A DNA stretch of 64,000 nt from NCBI GenBank assembly GCA_947450025.1, contig CANFTW010000010.1:1-64000 (forward strand), in the 5' to 3' direction. The notes under the pieces are model-generated. The model was not told the origin of the DNA, did not search any database, and saw nothing but the letters and a program-made list of their open reading frames with translations. Positions 10 to 30,367 of the stretch are shown one piece after another (the stretch's first letter is position 1; the number at the start of each line of letters is the position of its first letter). Position numbers and translations under genes: made by a program. This stretch comes from Bacteroidota bacterium (GTDB lineage: Bacteria > Bacteroidota > Bacteroidia > B-17B0 > Aurantibacillaceae).

Positions 10-1089
10 TTATTTTTTATTCATTAATTCAGTTTGAATACGAATAGACTCTTCGTGCAACAACTGACAAATTTTTTCTGTATGTGCTCTCGGAATACCT
101 AATTTTTCTGCCCATTGTGAACGTGAGCGTAAAATTTCTTGCCAACGACTTAATTGAAAAATAGTTAAGTCATGCTCCTTTTTATACTCTCCAATTTGCT
201 CTATAATCGTCATCCGTTTTTTAAGAACATTGATTAATTCATCATCCACTTCGTCAATCATTTTTCTGAATTGTGTTAATCGATCAACACAATCAGGATT
301 TTGAGTTGAGGACTGGCGATACACTAAACTATCTAATAATTCTTTTAAAACAGAAGGTGTTATTTGTTGTTGGGCATCACTTAAAGCTGAAGAAGGATTA
401 ATGTGAGATTCAATCATCAAGCCATTCATTCCTAAATCTAATGCCTTTTGTGCTACATGAGGAATGAGTTCACGATTGCCTGAAATATGACTTGGATCGC
501 AAATCATAGGCAACTCCGGCAATAGGGTTTTTAATTCAATCGCTAACTCCCACAATGGCTTATTTCGATATTTTGTTTTTCCAGCGTAATGAAACCCACG
601 GTGAATAGCAGCTAATTTAGTGACCCCTGAATTAGAAAATCGTTCAATAGCTCCTAACCATAATTGCACATCAGCATGAATAGGATTTTTGATAAATACA
701 GGAATATCAACTCCCTTAACTACATCGGCAATTTCTTGAACACTAAACGGATTTCCTGTTGTTCTTGCTCCAATCCACAATACATCAACGCCATGCTTTA
801 AGGCTAATTCGGTATGTTGGGCGTTTGCCACCTCAACCGTTGTTTTTAAACCATATTGTTTTTGTACTTGAGTTAACCACTCTAGTCCTCTTTCTCCAAC
901 ACCCTCAAAAGCATTGGGCCTCGTACGAGGTTTCCAAATCCCTGCTCTAAATAATTTAATATGTTCAATTTGAGAAAGCTCTTTTGCTGTTTGCAAAACT
1001 TGCGATTCCGTTTCTGCTCCACAAGGGCCAGCAATAATCAATGGCTCGTTAGAATTAGTAATCCAAGTATGTAATGCTTTTATTTCCAC
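10..1089 (-). CDS. Bifunctional DAHP synthase / chorismate mutase
   Basis: 359 residues. The N-terminal two thirds (about 15-255) form a class I (KDSA-like) 3-deoxy-7-phosphoheptulonate synthase barrel, which condenses PEP with erythrose-4-phosphate. Visible motifs are AGPC at 20-23, RAGIWKPRT around 48-56, IGARTTGNP at 106-114, KNP at 134-136 and CDPSH at 197-201. The C-terminal part (about 270-355) is an AroQ-type all-helical chorismate mutase starting RKMIDEVD at 275. This fusion order is usual in Bacteroidota and ties shikimate-pathway entry to prephenate formation. ATG start. The stop lies a few bases from the left window edge, so downstream partners are not visible. A second shikimate gene (aroB) is 52 kb away in the window. 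Family call is secure; feedback behaviour is not inferable. Confidence 0.95.
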   Translation of the reverse strand: MEIKALHTWITNSNEPLIIAGPCGAETESQVLQTAKELSQIEHIKLFRAGIWKPRTRPNAFEGVGERGLEWLTQVQKQYGLKTTVEVANAQHTELALKHGVDVLWIGARTTGNPFSVQEIADVVKGVDIPVFIKNPIHADVQLWLGAIERFSNSGVTKLAAIHRGFHYAGKTKYRNKPLWELAIELKTLLPELPMICDPSHISGNRELIPHVAQKALDLGMNGLMIESHINPSSALSDAQQQITPSVLKELLDSLVYRQSSTQNPDCVDRLTQFRKMIDEVDDELINVLKKRMTIIEQIGEYKKEHDLTIFQLSRWQEILRSRSQWAEKLGIPRAHTEKICQLLHEESIRIQTELMNKK

Positions 1090-1160
1090 TATAAAGGATA
1101 CAAAGTAAGTAAAAAAATGTTCAATTATTCAGCGAAAAATAGATAAAGATATATAAATCG

Positions 1161-3005
1161 CTATCTGCAATAAGTCATAAACGGCTGTTGAGCTGCAGAG
1201 AATCCTAAATCCAATGCTTTTTTTAAATCTGAACAAGGATTTTTTTTCATATTTACTTTCACGACTCCTTTCCAATAATATGCTTCTGCAAAATTACCAT
1301 CAAGATGAATGCAGATGTCAAGGTCTGAAAGACAATTTTGAAACTGCTGCATTTTACCATAAAGGATAGCACGTCGCATCAAATACATTGGATTTTCTGG
1401 ACTTAAAGTAATCACTTTATTGTAATATAGTAAAGCTTTATCTAGTTGGTTTAAATCATCATAGCAATTTGCCATCACATAATTTGCTTTTGCATTATCA
1501 GGTTCCGCTTTTAAAACTGCATCGGCATCACTCATAGCTTTAGAAAAATCTTTCATGTTGTAATAAACATTTGCTCGAGCGACATAGGCTTTTGGATATT
1601 GTTGCAAAGCAATGGCTTTATCAAAATCACTAAGAGCCTTTTTCATTCGATCAGTTTGAGCATATAACAATCCTCTGTTATAATATCCTTTATAATATTC
1701 TGTATTTTCATTGATAGCGGCATTTAAATAATGAGAAGCCATATCATAGTTTTTATTAAGCATATATTCAGCGCCTAAACTATTTAAAGCGACATATGAA
1801 TGGGGGTATTTTTTGATGATGTCAGAATATAAAGCAATACTATTTTTCCAAACACTTGCTCTCATAAAGGTTAAACTTCCTAAAACAAGTATTAAGGTAA
1901 TCCCAATAATTTTTAATTGTTTTTCTTTAAATGGAATAATCGATAATACTGCGATGCAGATTCCCATAATAGGTAAATACATATATCTATCTGCGGTTAA
2001 CACTTCTCCGAAAGGAATGAACTGTAGCACTAGCAATAAATTGATGATGAAAAACAATAAACCAAAGAAAATAATTTTTGAAGATGATTTATATAGTTTG
2101 TATAAACCGAATACTAGCAAAGCCAACATCACATAACCTACGCCTATACTTAATGCTTTATTTTGAGGGTAAGGATATATCACAGATAAATCCATTGGAA
2201 TAAAAAACTTATAGACGTATTGCAATAGTGCATAACCAGCATAACCAATGCGTTCGTGAATGGCATAAGCATGATTTTGATTAATAAATTTATCTTCAGT
2301 CCTTGTGTAAATGGTTGCTATACCTATAACTAAAGCAACTGTGATAAATGGAATTTTATTAATCACAAGAGATTTAAAATCCAATTTTACTTTCAATACA
2401 TAATCTATTGCTACTAACACTAATGGGAAACAGATGGCCGAAGGTTTACTTAATACCGAAAGAATAAAAAAGAGAAGAGCATAGATGTAATTTTTTTTAA
2501 TACCACTTACTATAAATTTTGTGTAGTGTATCAACCCTAATAAAAAGAAAACACTGTAAACTAAGTTGTTTTTTGCCGATACCCAAGCCACCGTTTCAAC
2601 TTGCAACGGATGTAAACAAAAGATGAGAGCACATATAGATGCTCTTAATTTGTCTTTTAATATGAGAATACATAAATAATAAACTAAAACCCCATTAATA
2701 ATATGAAATAACAAACTCAACGCATGATGACCAGCTGCATTTCCCTTGAAAATTAACCAATCTATAGCAAAACCTATCATGGCAATCGGGGCATAGTTTC
2801 CTACATAGTAATTAGTAAAAAATGCTTTGATGTTAAAATCATGAACATCCTTATTGTTTACTAGTACCTCTCCATCATCCCAGCTAATAAAATTGGCAGA
2901 AAACAATTTAAAGTAAGCTAAAACCACTAAAGCAGCCAAAACCAATGCATATAGCATGGTTGTGATAAATGTTATGTTTTTATGGGTTGTTTTCAAGATA
3001 AACAA
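1161..3005 (-). CDS. Polytopic membrane protein with C-terminal TPR repeats (TMTC-like)
   Basis: About 600 residues. The first ~400 are strongly hydrophobic with roughly ten membrane segments. Near the N terminus is an acidic periplasmic loop motif, SWDDGEVL, as in GT-C fold/TMTC-like glycosyltransferase-related proteins. Residues ~400-614 are tandem TPRs (repeated AL..Y..AI/A..L.P patterns). Members are annotated only as tetratricopeptide repeat membrane proteins; O-mannosyl transfer is a possible but unproven activity. The start is uncertain: TTG at 3005 gives the longest frame, another TTG lies at 2996, and the first ATG is at 2957. A TAnnTTTG box overlaps the 3005 codon, which favours 2996 or 2957. 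It is divergent from a glycosyltransferase gene. Confidence 0.8.
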   Translation of the reverse strand: MFILKTTHKNITFITTMLYALVLAALVVLAYFKLFSANFISWDDGEVLVNNKDVHDFNIKAFFTNYYVGNYAPIAMIGFAIDWLIFKGNAAGHHALSLLFHIINGVLVYYLCILILKDKLRASICALIFCLHPLQVETVAWVSAKNNLVYSVFFLLGLIHYTKFIVSGIKKNYIYALLFFILSVLSKPSAICFPLVLVAIDYVLKVKLDFKSLVINKIPFITVALVIGIATIYTRTEDKFINQNHAYAIHERIGYAGYALLQYVYKFFIPMDLSVIYPYPQNKALSIGVGYVMLALLVFGLYKLYKSSSKIIFFGLLFFIINLLLVLQFIPFGEVLTADRYMYLPIMGICIAVLSIIPFKEKQLKIIGITLILVLGSLTFMRASVWKNSIALYSDIIKKYPHSYVALNSLGAEYMLNKNYDMASHYLNAAINENTEYYKGYYNRGLLYAQTDRMKKALSDFDKAIALQQYPKAYVARANVYYNMKDFSKAMSDADAVLKAEPDNAKANYVMANCYDDLNQLDKALLYYNKVITLSPENPMYLMRRAILYGKMQQFQNCLSDLDICIHLDGNFAEAYYWKGVVKVNMKKNPCSDLKKALDLGFSAAQQPFMTYCR

Positions 3006-3010
3006 ATTTA
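3003..3010 (-). promoter_or_regulatory. Candidate -7 box of TPR membrane gene
   Basis: The minus strand reads TAAATTTG, matching the Bacteroidota -7 consensus TAnnTTTG. It would put transcription start near 2997, so the TTG at 3005 would be untranscribed. No convincing -33 TTG was found. Confidence 0.35.
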
Positions 3011-3049
3011 AGATTTAGTTCGTTTCTTCCTATACAAATCTTAAATTTA
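3003..3049. repeat. Inverted repeat in divergent promoter region
   Basis: A 13-bp perfect inverted repeat, AAATTTAAGATTT (from 3004) and AAATCTTAAATTT (to about 3048), is separated by ~18 bp. It fills the 48-bp gap between the TPR protein and the glycosyltransferase. The left arm contains a minus-strand TAnnTTTG match. It could be an operator for divergent control or a member of the TTTAAGATTTAAG low-complexity family also seen at 31461-31495. Confidence 0.6.
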
Positions 3050-3053
3050 CATC

Positions 3054-3824
3054 GTGCCAAAGTTATCAGTTGTCATCATAACATTTAACGAAGAAAAAAA
3101 CATTGCTCGTTGCTTGGAATCTGTTAAAGAGATTGCCGATGAAATTGTAGTGCTTGATTCTTTCAGTAAAGATAGAACCAAAGAGATTTGTGCTTCGTTT
3201 GGCGTACAATTTTTTGAGCATGCTTTTGATGGGCATATTCAACAAAAAAATAGAGCCATTACCTATGCTTCAAATCCACATATTTTGTCTTTAGATGCGG
3301 ATGAAGCTTTAGACGATACATTAAAAAAAACAATTTTAGAAATAAAGAACAACTGGACACATGACGGTTATTATATGAATCGTTTAACCAACTATTGTGG
3401 TCATTGGGTAAGGCATTGCAATTGGTATCCAGATACTAAAATGCGTTTATGGGATAGTCGTAAAGGTTGGTGGACGGGGATTAACCCACACGACAAATAC
3501 GAATTAAAAGATGGTGACAAAAACACCAAACATATTAAAGGCGATATTTTACACTACAGCTATTATAATTTAGAAGACCATTACAAACAAGTAGAATATT
3601 TTACCAATATTGCTTCTAAAGCTTTTGTAGAAGCTGGCAAGAAAGCGCCTTTTTATAAATTAATAGCGAACCCTATCGCTAAATTTATTGATCATTATTT
3701 GTTGCATTTAGGATTTTTAGATGGCAAGGCGGGATATTTAATTTCTAAAATATCGGCTTATGCTACCTATTTAAAATACAAAAAAATCAGAGACATTTAC
3801 AAACAACAAGCGCTTGCAAAATAA
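3054..3824 (+). CDS. Family 2 glycosyltransferase (LPS core type, WaaE/KdtX-like)
   Basis: 256 residues, GT-A fold. The N terminus has the typical VVIITFNEE motif (6-14), followed by VLDSFSKDRT (33-42) and the metal-binding DADE at 81-84, where nucleotide-sugar would bind with a divalent cation. Cytoplasmic or membrane-associated; the sugar is not predictable. It resembles glucosyltransferases acting on LPS inner core. The start is GTG at 3054; there is no upstream ATG. The stop overlaps the next gene by 11 bp, indicating translational coupling in a three-gene plus-strand operon. Confidence 0.88.
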   Translation: MPKLSVVIITFNEEKNIARCLESVKEIADEIVVLDSFSKDRTKEICASFGVQFFEHAFDGHIQQKNRAITYASNPHILSLDADEALDDTLKKTILEIKNNWTHDGYYMNRLTNYCGHWVRHCNWYPDTKMRLWDSRKGWWTGINPHDKYELKDGDKNTKHIKGDILHYSYYNLEDHYKQVEYFTNIASKAFVEAGKKAPFYKLIANPIAKFIDHYLLHLGFLDGKAGYLISKISAYATYLKYKKIRDIYKQQALAK

Positions 3825-25616: not shown

Positions 25617-26345
25617 TTATTTTCTTAAAGTAAAATTAAAAGGGATATTAAAAAATACGGATACCTTTTTATTGTTTTGCATTCCGGGTGTCCAAGTTGG
25701 CATTAATTGAATGACCCTAATTGCTTCATTATCTAATATAGCATAACCTGAAGATTTAATAATTTGAGGCTCTACAACATTTCCTGATTCGTTTACTATA
25801 AATTTCACAAATGTTTTACCAGTCCATTTTTTTACTTCAGCTTCTCTTGGATATTTGATGGTAGTTTGAATAAACTTCATCATTTCTTGAACACCACCTG
25901 GAAACTCTGGCATAACCTCAACCACGGTGAACACATCCTCTAATTTACTTTTTCGCGAATACGTTTTTTCTCCATTTTCTGCAACTGTGAGAACCGAAGA
26001 ATCGGTTTGATTATCATAATAATAAATCCACGATCCTAGTTGCTGTCCATTTCGATAAGTACCACTTGACGATTTAGTTTGATTTTTATTATAATAGGTA
26101 CACTTTCCATTTTTAAGTAACGGAGAAAGTTGACTAGCCTCAGCTACCATTTGCAAATGTCCATCTAAATAATAGTCTGATATTAAAAAGCCCTTGTCTG
26201 TTTTTTGTGAGGTACGATAATAATTAGCATACTTTTTAGAAACTTCTTTCCAATCAGAATCAAACCAAGTGGTATCTAACACGCTTTGTTGAGCAAAAGA
26301 TGCTTTTGCAAGTAAAAAAAATACTATGTAAACAAACAACTTCAC
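25617..26345 (-). CDS. TonB-family protein (energy-transducer C-terminal domain) inserted in nuo operon
   Basis: 242 residues. Signal peptide 1-18 (ends SFAQ), then YwqK/MORN-like repeats (~55-110), then a TonB C-terminal domain (~145-242): PEFPGGVQEM, KYPREAEVKKWTGKTFVKFIV, SSGYAILDNEAIRVI, PTWTPGMQNNKKV. It lacks an N-terminal membrane anchor and Pro-rich spacer, so it is not a classical ExbBD-driven TonB; this architecture is common in Bacteroidota periplasmic proteins of unknown role. GTG start directly after the nuoF stop. It has no known part in complex I. Confidence 0.82.
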   Translation of the reverse strand: MKLFVYIVFFLLAKASFAQQSVLDTTWFDSDWKEVSKKYANYYRTSQKTDKGFLISDYYLDGHLQMVAEASQLSPLLKNGKCTYYNKNQTKSSSGTYRNGQQLGSWIYYYDNQTDSSVLTVAENGEKTYSRKSKLEDVFTVVEVMPEFPGGVQEMMKFIQTTIKYPREAEVKKWTGKTFVKFIVNESGNVVEPQIIKSSGYAILDNEAIRVIQLMPTWTPGMQNNKKVSVFFNIPFNFTLRK

Positions 26346-27696: not shown

Positions 27697-28107
27697 TTAT
27701 AATTTTTTTCCTTTAAACGTTTCATTAACTCCAGCTCCAAGTCCACCATTCATACAATTATAAAACATGCTATCGTTCCTAAAATCAATTCTTCCATGAT
27801 AAATTGAAAATGAGTTCACAGATGAATCATAGTATATAATCGAACAATTATTCAATGATGTTGTAAGTGATGAGTCGGCAGAACCAGAGCCAATTATTAT
27901 TGTTGTATCTTTTGAATCAAAAGAGCCATAAGTTCCTCCACTATAAGATTGTGAAGTCCAAGTCCCTTTGTAATTGCCAACATATTGTGCGTTCCAATTA
28001 GGAGTAGTATTTGAAGTATTGATTACTGGTTCAGTAACAATAGTATCCTTCTTACAACTCATAAAAGTGACGAACAACATAAATATGATAATTACATTTT
28101 TTTTCAT
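27697..28107 (-). CDS. Small lipoprotein inserted in nuo operon
   Basis: 136 residues. Type II signal with lipobox FMSC (lipid on Cys18) followed by KKDT, a typical Bacteroidota surface or periplasmic lipoprotein start. The rest is a Ser/Thr/Asn-rich beta domain of about 115 residues with two further Cys. No recognised family. It sits 5 bp after nuoE and 13 bp before nuoF, so it must be co-transcribed with complex I. Confidence 0.75.
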   Translation of the reverse strand: MKKNVIIIFMLFVTFMSCKKDTIVTEPVINTSNTTPNWNAQYVGNYKGTWTSQSYSGGTYGSFDSKDTTIIIGSGSADSSLTTSLNNCSIIYYDSSVNSFSIYHGRIDFRNDSMFYNCMNGGLGAGVNETFKGKKL

Positions 28108-28112
28108 TTCGC

Positions 28113-28694
28113 TTAAAGCGTATTCTTATAATCTAAATCTGTATAACTTCTTAATCTGCCTTCGTTTTTGTAAGTTTCTAAAATAGCATCTACTTTTTCG
28201 TAAGTTAAATTTTCGTGGTAACTCGCTCCGCATTGTAACATTGGCGCTGTTCCGCAAGAACCTAAACACTCTGCTACTTTTAAGGTAAACATACCATCTT
28301 TAGTTGTTTCACCAACTTTGATATTTAATTTTTTCTCAATGTATTTTACGATGTCTTCAGCTCCGTTTAACCAACAAGAACTTGTTTGACAAACTTCTAA
28401 TACACATTTGCCCACTGGTTTTAAATTATACATTGTGTAAAATGATGCAACCTCAAAAACCTCAACTGGTTTAATTTTTAAAATAGAAGCCACATAATCC
28501 ATTGTTTCAGGGCTTAACCAACCTCCAAATTCAGCTTGAGCTAAATGTAAGATTGGCAATAAAGCTGATTTTTGTTTCCCTTCTGGATAATGAGAAATAA
28601 TAGTTTGTGCGGTCTTCATCGCTTCTTCACTGAAAACTGTTTCAGTGCGTTTAGCGTTGTCAAATTTTTGTGCTCCGTGTACTTGTGATCCCAT
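28113..28694 (-). CDS. nuoE: NADH-quinone oxidoreductase subunit E (2Fe-2S)
   Basis: 193 residues, thioredoxin-like fold carrying cluster N1a with ligands in CQTSSC and CLGSC. The N-terminal helical region (FSEEAMKTAQTII...KQKSALLPILHLAQ) is typical. Peripheral arm of complex I. It is preceded by the inverted-repeat-bounded four-helix-bundle gene. Confidence 0.96.
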   Translation of the reverse strand: MGSQVHGAQKFDNAKRTETVFSEEAMKTAQTIISHYPEGKQKSALLPILHLAQAEFGGWLSPETMDYVASILKIKPVEVFEVASFYTMYNLKPVGKCVLEVCQTSSCWLNGAEDIVKYIEKKLNIKVGETTKDGMFTLKVAECLGSCGTAPMLQCGASYHENLTYEKVDAILETYKNEGRLRSYTDLDYKNTL

Positions 28695-28711
28695 TTATTA
28701 TTAAATTAAAA

Positions 28712-28734
28712 AATTAAAAGTTAAAAGTTAAAAG
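28712..28734. repeat. Three tandem TTAAAAG heptamers (left flank of four-helix-bundle unit)
   Basis: TTAAAAG occurs three times in a row (28714, 28721, 28728), containing AAGTTAAAA twice. Those 9-mers are exact reverse complements of TTTTAACTT at 29126 and 29141 on the other side of the gene. Confidence 0.75.
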
Positions 28735-28735
28735 G

Positions 28736-29107
28736 CTAAACTTTCGAAGAAGTCTTTTCAACTTTTAAGTTTAAAATTATTTTTGCTATTACTTTTTCTA
28801 TTTGTTTCAATTCTTCCCAACATTTATTTAGTGCTTCTGATTTATAATCATAGCCTTTTGTTATGACTTCAAACCAAAAATCTGTTTCGTTTGCAGATTT
28901 TAATGCAATTGCATAATATTTCACTAACTCTTTTCTTGACACACTTGATTTACCTTCTCTAACGTTTGCTCCAACTGATGTTCCACTTCTTCTAACTTGA
29001 TCAACTATATCAAAATCTATTTTTTCTTTTTTTAATAAAGCAGAAAGTTTAACTATTGAAATGGCAAATTCTAAGGTCCATTCTTTTATGTCTTTCTGAT
29101 ATTTCAA
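28736..29107 (-). CDS. Four-helix bundle protein (23S rRNA intervening-sequence protein family)
   Basis: 123 residues, all-helical. The family signature is clear: an early aromatic/acidic helix, QVRRSGTSVGANVREG (~41-56), then SRKELVKYYAIALKSANET (~61-79) and a C-terminal helix of the type CWEELKQIEKVIAKII. These S23/IVP proteins were first found encoded in intervening sequences of 23S rRNA genes and also occur as free-standing genes. This copy sits between nuoD and nuoE, bounded by inverted AAGTTAAAA repeats, which suggests insertion as a discrete unit. The molecular role of the family is unresolved. Confidence 0.88.
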   Translation of the reverse strand: MKYQKDIKEWTLEFAISIVKLSALLKKEKIDFDIVDQVRRSGTSVGANVREGKSSVSRKELVKYYAIALKSANETDFWFEVITKGYDYKSEALNKCWEELKQIEKVIAKIILNLKVEKTSSKV

Positions 29108-29125
29108 ACTTATTTTCTTGTTAAA

Positions 29126-29149
29126 TTTTAACTTATATATTTTTAACTT
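29126..29149. repeat. Two TTTTAACTT 9-mers (right flank of four-helix-bundle unit)
   Basis: TTTTAACTT occurs at 29126-29134 and 29141-29149. Both are perfect inverted copies of the left-flank AAGTTAAAA elements at 28718 and 28725. Confidence 0.75.
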
Positions 29150-29152
29150 GAA

Positions 29153-30367
29153 TTAAGCGTCTAACTCTCCTGCAATAACATTCATACTACTCATGGTTAA
29201 AATCGCATCTGACAACATAATTCCTTTAATCATTTCTGGATATGCTTGGTAATAAATAAAGCATGGTCTGCGGAAATGTAAACGGAATGGTGTTCTACCA
29301 CCATCACTAATTAAATAAAAACCTAATTCTCCATTTCCACCTTCTACGCAATGATATACTTCTCCTTTAGGAATATCTGTTTCACCCATCACAATTTTAA
29401 AGTGATAGATTAACGCTTCCATACTATTGTATACTTGTTCTTTTGGGGGCAAGAAGAAATCTGGTAAATCAGCGTGCATTGCACCTACAGGCATTTTTTT
29501 AATCGCTTGCTCAATGATGCTTAAGGATTGCCACATTTCGTGTTGACGAACCATGAAACGATCATAAGTATCACCTTGTGTGCCAACTGGAACTGTGAAT
29601 GTAAAATCTTCATATGAAGAATATGGATTCATGACGCGTACGTCATAATCAACACCAGCTGCACGTAAGTTAGGTCCAACAAAACTGTATTCTAACGCTC
29701 TTTCTGCTGATATTGGTCCGCAATTAACTGTACGGTCCATGAAAATTTTATTACGCTCTAATAAATTAGAAAATTCCGTTAATCCTTTAGGGAATTCTTT
29801 TAAAAATGTATCAATTAAATCCCAAGCTTTTTTACTCCACTCTTTATCAAAACCACCAATACGACCAATGTTAGTAGTTAAACGAGCACCGCAAATTTCT
29901 TCGAAGATTTCGTAAATTTTTTCTCTCCATTGAAAGATGTACAAGAAACCTGTCATGGCTCCCGTATCAACACCAATAACTGAGTTACAAATAATATGAT
30001 CGGCGATACGAGATAATTCCATAATGATGACACGGTGATATTGTGCACGTTTTGGAATTTCTGCTTTTAATAATTTCTCTACAGTCATGTACCAACCCAT
30101 ATTATTGATTGGAGACGAGCAATAGTTTAAACGATCGGTAATCGGTGTGATTTGTGCGTATGGACGACGCTCTGCTAATTTTTCGAAAGCACGGTGAATA
30201 TATCCAATTGTAGGAACGGCATCGTGAATAATTTCACCATCCATTTTCAATACATTTTGAAAAATACCGTGTGTTGCAGGATGCGTAGGGCCAAGGTTAA
30301 GCGTAGAGTATTCTTTCTCTTCAATAACTTCCTTATTAACCGAATATGTTGTTTCTTTTTTACTCAT
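29153..30367 (-). CDS. nuoD: NADH-quinone oxidoreductase subunit D
   Basis: 404 residues, 49-kDa subunit forming the quinone-binding cavity with NuoB. It has LGPTHPATHG near the N terminus (His loop), RFDR-like helices, and the C-terminal SDAILTMSSMNVIAGELDA. It is encoded separately from nuoC, unlike the fused E. coli NuoCD. 18 bp after nuoC. Confidence 0.97.
   Translation of the reverse strand: MSKKETTYSVNKEVIEEKEYSTLNLGPTHPATHGIFQNVLKMDGEIIHDAVPTIGYIHRAFEKLAERRPYAQITPITDRLNYCSSPINNMGWYMTVEKLLKAEIPKRAQYHRVIIMELSRIADHIICNSVIGVDTGAMTGFLYIFQWREKIYEIFEEICGARLTTNIGRIGGFDKEWSKKAWDLIDTFLKEFPKGLTEFSNLLERNKIFMDRTVNCGPISAERALEYSFVGPNLRAAGVDYDVRVMNPYSSYEDFTFTVPVGTQGDTYDRFMVRQHEMWQSLSIIEQAIKKMPVGAMHADLPDFFLPPKEQVYNSMEALIYHFKIVMGETDIPKGEVYHCVEGGNGELGFYLISDGGRTPFRLHFRRPCFIYYQAYPEMIKGIMLSDAILTMSSMNVIAGELDA

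Follow-up and report, generated by a model that had tools for sequence, protein, structure and literature searches.

We found that the short gene between nuoD and nuoE in the window (the whole 64,000-nt stretch analysed here) belongs to a bounded unit at positions 28695-29152, for which the safest statement is that it represents the operon-borne counterpart of an S23-bearing 23S rRNA intervening sequence and is recognisable by heptad arrays in mostly inverted orientation. The unit and its neighbours are arranged as follows.

28113 to 28694, minus strand: nuoE, the host gene downstream (open reading frame and profile match)
28695 to 28735, minus strand: right flank (3', downstream), with the right heptad arm of CTTTTAA units and the inverted repeat at 28703-28731
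28736 to 29107, minus strand: S23/IVP four-helix-bundle gene, 123 amino acids, TTG start, matching the PF05635 and TIGR02436 profiles
29108 to 29152, minus strand: left flank (5', upstream along the nuo mRNA), including the left arm at 29121-29149
29153 to 30367, minus strand: nuoD, the host gene upstream (open reading frame and profile match)

Two other genes were observed to interrupt the nuo operon, namely, between nuoE and nuoF, a 136-aa open reading frame (27697-28107) that matched nothing in Pfam or NCBIfam, and a gene for a TonB_C-domain protein between the putative nuoF and nuoG (25617-26345).

The earlier note on this DNA had described a 9-mer present twice on each side of the S23 gene in inverted orientation, and we confirmed both the repeats and their positions: AAGTTAAAA occurs at 28718-28726 and 28725-28733 on the plus strand, and its inverted form, TTTTAACTT, at 29126-29134 and 29141-29149. 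These 9-mers are the clearest units within a larger inverted repeat (28703-28731 and 29121-29149) of 29 nt and 83% complementarity, which is built of approximately 7-nt units and has its arms separated by 389 nt. The right flank (locus L003) carried a 42-nt heptad array at p<=0.01, while the left flank was absent from the list at that threshold. In this AT-rich window the bare 9-mer was unremarkable, with seven occurrences found against 4.5 expected and 13 of 100 shuffles reaching seven; the 16-mer that it forms in tandem, AAGTTAAAAGTTAAAA, was found four times when up to two mismatches were allowed, against 0.84 expected, and one of 100 shuffles reached four. All four matches fell inside the unit, including one at the 3' end of the S23 gene. 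The caution in the earlier note that the 9-mer might be just as frequent elsewhere therefore held for the bare word, which is as common as chance, but not for the tandem arrays, which exceed both chance and controls. When arm pairing was scored by local alignment of the 80-nt flanks, and ranked by swapping in the right arms of other sites, the unit had a score of 20.0 and its own right arm ranked first of 69.

The same genome carries three S23 genes, each flanked by co-directional genes. The flanking word of the window copy does not recur at the other two, and every copy has its own arm word. The own-arm rank was 2/71 for the copy at L002 and weak, 13/72, for that at L001, compared with 1/69 for the window copy. 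Own arms were also scored for 53 control genes that, like the S23 genes, lie between co-directional neighbours in 464 kb of the genome; among these 56 genes, the S23 genes gave the three highest scores (20.0, 15.2 and 14.6), the best control reaching 14.2; among the 53 controls none ranked first against exchanged partners and one was in the top 5%. Ordinary spacers of the genome had no 7-nt period (lag-7 identity 0.324, 103 spacers), and heptad arrays by themselves were slightly above chance in control spacers (8/85 at p<=0.05; 13/158). Spacers combining an inverted repeat with a heptad array numbered one of 158, and this one was terminator-like; a large family of gene-free hairpins in this genome was rejected on that count.

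S23 genes were present in all 20 genomes of the genus, from one to ten per genome, with 81 PF05635 matches in total. After omission of nine partial or split matches, 72 loci were used, among them L016 and L062, whose frames contain an internal stop, and L065, which lacks a downstream neighbour; grouped by neighbouring genes, which were taken from a simple longest-ORF caller, they represent 31 sites. At all 71 loci where both neighbours were visible, the S23 gene was co-directional with both. Host genes read from protein sequences include nuoJ/nuoK, sufC/sufD, sdhA and miaB, and profiles identified nuoD/nuoE as well as the 4-hydroxyphenylpyruvate dioxygenase gene beside L002. The arm word varied among loci, with the two arms of one locus matching each other, inverted, better than they matched the arms of other loci: the mean own-arm score was 14.6, versus 9.06 (sd 2.3) over 4842 cross-site pairs, and the own partner ranked first for 27 of the 72 loci, or for 14 of 31 with one locus per site (p 2e-13). 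Lag-7 identity was 0.45 in the left and 0.44 in the right flanks, with a second peak at 14.

Similar arrangements were found well beyond the genus. Among sampled genomes, S23 genes were present in 35/41 from the taxonomic family and 45/61 from the phylum, taken to be Bacteroidota, and these gave 49 loci, one of which was lost to short flanks; the own partner came first for 18 of the remaining 48. In a set of 86 loci, six of them from plasmids and 80 being the best of 584 places in a collection of named genomes, the own partner took first place at 38 and was within the top 5% at 55, and in a further set, which overlaps earlier loci in part, it ranked first for 22 of 39. Titles among the best 80 of the 584 places include Bacteroidota, Chloroflexi, Planctomycetota, Clostridia, candidate phyla, Proteobacteria and Methanophagales archaea. 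Co-direction with both neighbours was looser outside the genus (38/49, 53/86 and 41/60), where the ORF calls were crude.

Pooling yielded 265 loci, of which 20 with identical S23 DNA were dropped and one of the 245 distinct loci had short flanks, leaving 244. Judged by single-base shuffles, which also underlie the heptad-array, junction and spacer statistics and are lenient for inverted repeats, 180 of the 244 loci had a significant heptad array in one or both flanks, 114 of them in both, and 64 had none. Median array lengths were 39 and 37 nt, and of the 194 flanks with strong periodicity, 129 had a best period of 7, 54 one of 8 and 11 one of some other length. The excess of G over C was higher in the left flank than in the right at 215 of 244 loci, the reverse being found at 26, and a weak AG/GT phase lock was seen inside the heptads. 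GC-rich words occur too (L124 and L408). Several individual loci deserve description. L408, from a Calditrichaceae metagenome-assembled genome (G114), has GC-rich arms of about 69 columns and, at 50.4, the highest own-arm score of its set; L241, on a contig titled Methanophagales archaeon, has an S23 gene with heptad-like arms and an own-arm rank of 2/86; two cyanobacterial plasmids have an S23 gene within CRISPR operons (L162, 1501-1860; L167, 1492-1848), between cas6 and cas4 and between cas10/cmr2 and a cmr3-family gene; and at L138 approximately 60 nt are directly repeated on either side of the S23 gene (GTAGTCAGTAGTCGAGGAGTGGGGA...), which may represent a tandem remnant or a long target duplication.

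The earlier note had suggested a kinship with the stem-flanked intervening sequences of 23S rRNA, and two S23 genes lying inside 23S rRNA genes between heptad arms support it. Specifically, at L166 of Azospirillum lipoferum 4B an Rfam LSU match (283-3330) places the S23 frame within a 23S rRNA gene. Heptad arrays flank the frame and match each other in inverted orientation with a score of 25.0; the rank of L166, 75/86, is low because the wider profile shifted the called start. The second, L423, was obtained by searching the class to which a Bosea genome belongs (115 genomes, eight with the S23 family), and has heptad arms and an LSU match (184-3324) spanning the gene. No 23S sequence match was found in the other 85 loci of the 86-locus set, nor in the other 38 of the 39 in the set containing L423. 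The window unit itself is between nuoD and nuoE and not in an rRNA gene, and covariance models at the gathering threshold found no Rfam match in the unit-bearing stretch (L033), neither a group I or II intron nor another mobile RNA. As far as the consulted part of PMC4990558 goes, the 23S intervening sequence of Coxiella burnetii carries the heptamer GACAGAT three times in tandem ahead of the S23 start, as well as a 28-bp terminal inverted repeat, with RNase III cutting where the first repeat begins. It thus resembles the window unit in having an S23-family reading frame, complementary ends and tandem heptamers by the start codon, and the stretches are of similar size (428 nt in Coxiella versus 458 nt here), but the window unit lies between protein-coding genes of an operon, and the published RNase III cleavage is that of the Coxiella sequence. 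Since L166, L423 and the Coxiella sequence all have heptads, rRNA-borne and operon-borne units have one design in common.

The window protein scored 69 bits with PF05635 (cut-off 33.8) and 80.8 bits with TIGR02436 (cut-off 24), and its AlphaFold2 monomer was predicted as four helices with a pLDDT of 94. The best fold match was 2RLD (TM 0.81-0.84 by query length), with 2GSC being less close; both belong to the same S23/IVP sequence family and fold, and each contains five chains. To our knowledge, no function has been established for PF05635-type genes annotated as four helix bundle protein. There is some likeness to Avd of diversity-generating retroelements, in that another member of the S23 family matched the PHROG Avd profile (5.9e-10) and chains of the DGR ribonucleoprotein entry 8UB7, which we take to be Avd, aligned with the window fold at TM 0.69-0.76; however, the latter match is weak (E 0.3) and some unrelated four-helix proteins score alike, a PHROG search with the window protein gave no match, and reading of the open reading frames in the window from 24 to 36 kb, which holds nuo and accessory genes, revealed no reverse transcriptase. 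By our own Nei-Gojobori script, dN/dS was 0.13 at the nuo site (four orthologues), with a median of 0.11 over ten S23 sites, so that the protein is under purifying selection. For Coxiella, in contrast, the authors hypothesise in the consulted part of the same paper (PMC4990558) that the RNA is more important than the protein. With the S23 protein of one relative as query (E 1e-5), no match was found in 50,697 phage records, and two S23 proteins had no match among defence profiles.

The sites show gain, loss and decay. At the 19 readable nuoD-nuoE junctions of the genus, the S23 gene was present in four (G000, G002, G003 and G016), all of which keep GTTAAAA-type arms; five had a spacer of 31-41 nt; four had a spacer of 85-97 nt, two of these being identical, without a significant inverted repeat; three had gene-free inverted heptad hairpins of 89-118 nt (G005, G013 and G015); and three, G006, G009 and G018 (L034, L037 and L042), had a different insert of 630-651 nt with a putative lipoprotein-like reading frame, indicating that this junction accepts different inserts. 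The case that all relatives would have the gene here with unconserved repeats, raised as a test of the earlier interpretation, is thus not what was found, as most lack the gene while its four carriers retain the arms. S23 occupancy was 4/18 readable junctions at nuoJ-nuoK, 13/17 downstream of miaB and 5/19 at sufC-sufD. Clean empty sufC-sufD sites have the two genes one or two bases apart, and in the filled ones (L298, L302, L303, L309 and L311) the left arm seems to overlap the 3' end of sufC, replacing its last codons, and to supply the sufC stop codon. As for decay, at sufC-sufD in G011 the right arm survives together with the terminal part of a decayed S23 gene, and the miaB sites of G002 and G012 resemble remnants. 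The proposal that the unit inserted without disrupting the operon is therefore supported, by the filled junctions and short spacers at nuoD-nuoE and by clean empty and decayed sites elsewhere. A recent jump was not caught: among 24571 pairs of S23 copies at different sites, two were at least 80% identical, both involving L209 at a contig end, and these were too few for recent transposition carrying the arms along to be upheld. No target-site duplication was identified.

We hold, with moderate confidence, that positions 28695-29152 are a compact insertion of the intervening-sequence kind, in which the S23 gene lies between two 7-nt arrays of about five units each that share a word and mostly face each other, and which would be transcribed with the operon, have cleavable arms and encode an array-binding S23 protein. 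This reading builds on the co-directional placement between operon genes in the genus, on presence at some sites in some species with absence or decay in others, on arms that remain matched although their word varies between species, on the conservation of the protein, and on the recurrence of the design around S23 genes in 23S rRNA. In such a unit, transcribed together with nuoD and nuoE, the arms would pair in the transcript and offer a cut site for RNase III or a similar enzyme, as in rRNA, and cutting at the paired arms would make the insertion cost the host little. The S23 protein, as an Avd-like pentamer, may bind the arrays, each protomer taking one of five 7-nt units (about 35 nt in all), and may be needed for the spread or upkeep of the unit; the array lengths of approximately 37-39 nt are roughly what such binding would require. 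A broader form of this explanation, which we put forward only tentatively, is that S23 pentamers read five-heptad arrays, and that the two together constitute a class of elements lodging in transcribed DNA of many bacterial phyla and some archaea, the 23S intervening sequences being the few that landed in rRNA, with a fast-changing word kept equal in both arms by an undescribed copying or recognition step.

An unlikely alternative, though the best of those we weighed, is a mobile element acting at the level of DNA, in which the heptad arrays would be terminal inverted repeats of several binding sites, S23 would bind the ends, the unit would be moved by host or other enzymes and RNA folding would be incidental. 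In 90 loci, arm mismatches comprised 101 G:U and 96 A:C (expected share 0.50), and this lack of a G:U excess, as a DNA element would have it, speaks against pairing being kept by selection on the transcript; selection for a sense-RNA stem, sought through wobble bias, was accordingly unsupported. That the unit folds out of the nuo mRNA, as the earlier note suggested, may be so: the minimum-energy fold does close through the arms, but its energy is ordinary (z -1.0, with 19 of 100 shuffles equally stable) and the wobble excess is lacking. With a threshold at the 97.5th percentile of exchanged pairs, inverted flank matches were found at 83 of 165 loci (16/31, 23/48 and 44/86) and same-direction matches at 31 of 165 (6/31, 8/48 and 17/86), whereas the inverted score exceeded the direct score at 26/31, 36/48 and 67/86 loci; both the larger inverted part and the existence of some same-direction arrays, like the clean empty sites, speak for DNA ends. 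At L093, L174 and L178 the gene seems to be within one arm, the right, of a complete hairpin. A DNA element is less easily reconciled with the unit's one gene having no nuclease or transposase profile match, with the lack of an identified target duplication or a recent copy, and with two regularities that symmetric DNA ends would not require, namely the G/C polarity of the left flank in 215/244 loci and the orientation of 71/71 genus copies with transcription. With the absent wobble bias and ordinary fold on one side and co-direction and G/C polarity on the other, we therefore make no choice between the RNA and the DNA level.

It is improbable, in our estimate, that the arrays are by-products of mutation, with slippage making tandem heptads, template switching copying them between arms and S23 being an ordinary, selfish or domesticated gene. 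An observation that also counts in its favour is that words vary between species while the arms remain matched. For example, the 13 S23 proteins of the miaB site form one clade with one outsider at weak support (0.50), with a nested nine-member clade at 0.84, and several kinds of arm words are present at this site; in the nine-member clade the own arms matched better than exchanged arms in 20 of 21 pairs (14.1 versus 10.8). Over all same-site pairs with S23 proteins less than 65% identical, own arms exceeded exchanged arms in 64 of 68 (14.1 versus 9.6), 57 of the 68 being miaB-site pairs (own over exchanged in 53 of these), although these pairs are interdependent and were separated by identity only once the unsplit test had proved non-significant (30/55, p 0.15). 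The unsplit test was not significant because close relatives share a word, and pairs at least 65% identical gave own over cross in 33 of 62 (p 0.08). The S23 genes at sites 1 and 6 are scattered over the sequence tree, and we read them as probable independent arrivals. Two sources of the word were considered and set aside: S23 sequence as its determinant had no support within genomes (rho 0.045, p 0.25; 333 pairs, 19 genomes), and copying from the host target was hinted at by TTTGAAA at both empty and filled sufC sites, with the miaB site showing several kinds of words. That S23 sequence does not predict the word, and that wobble bias is absent, both speak for a mutational origin, but such an origin leaves unexplained why arrays occur at S23 genes across phyla and not at the 53 control genes or in ordinary spacers, as well as the preferred unit of 7-8 nt and the G/C polarity. 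Finally, that the repeats are accidents of an AT-rich spacer around a host gene is hardly credible: the 9-mer is indeed as frequent as chance allows, but the tandem form, own-partner ranking, period and control sets all speak against it, as do the GC-rich arms of L124 and L408.

Comparison with described systems suggests that the arrangement has received little attention. The library entries for the S23/IVP family (PF05635/TIGR02436; 2RLD, 2GSC) name the protein only, and flanking arrays are not in the description shown. In REP/RAYT systems, a gene lies between inverted repeats and gene-free hairpins occur elsewhere. The S23 unit is like these in having its gene flanked by inverted repeats, but it lacks a Y1 transposase, its words are locus-specific and gene-free copies are rare here (1/158 spacers). 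Arrays of the heptamer TAACTGA in Beggiatoaceae, cyanobacteria and some Bacteroidetes are, according to the consulted part of PMC4679880, mostly intergenic and tandem, often right before a start codon; they differ from the S23 units in consisting of one fixed word in direct repeats, except for one set, and S23 or four-helix proteins are mentioned nowhere in the main text of that paper. In the open-access literature PF05635 was named in a single paper, on DGRs, and TIGR02436 was not found, and no heptad arrays around S23 genes outside rRNA were found in open-access titles and abstracts, a search that left subscription journals mostly uncovered, so that an earlier description is possible.

The design found around the S23 gene in the nuo operon recurs across phyla, much more widely than the window, and points to a widespread, little-described kind of inserted genetic unit. 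With many copies, empty sites and defined heptad arrays available, binding, cleavage and movement can all be tested. If arrays and S23 genes do constitute one element that includes the 23S intervening sequences, the origin and spread of these sequences and the role of the S23 protein would become directly testable.
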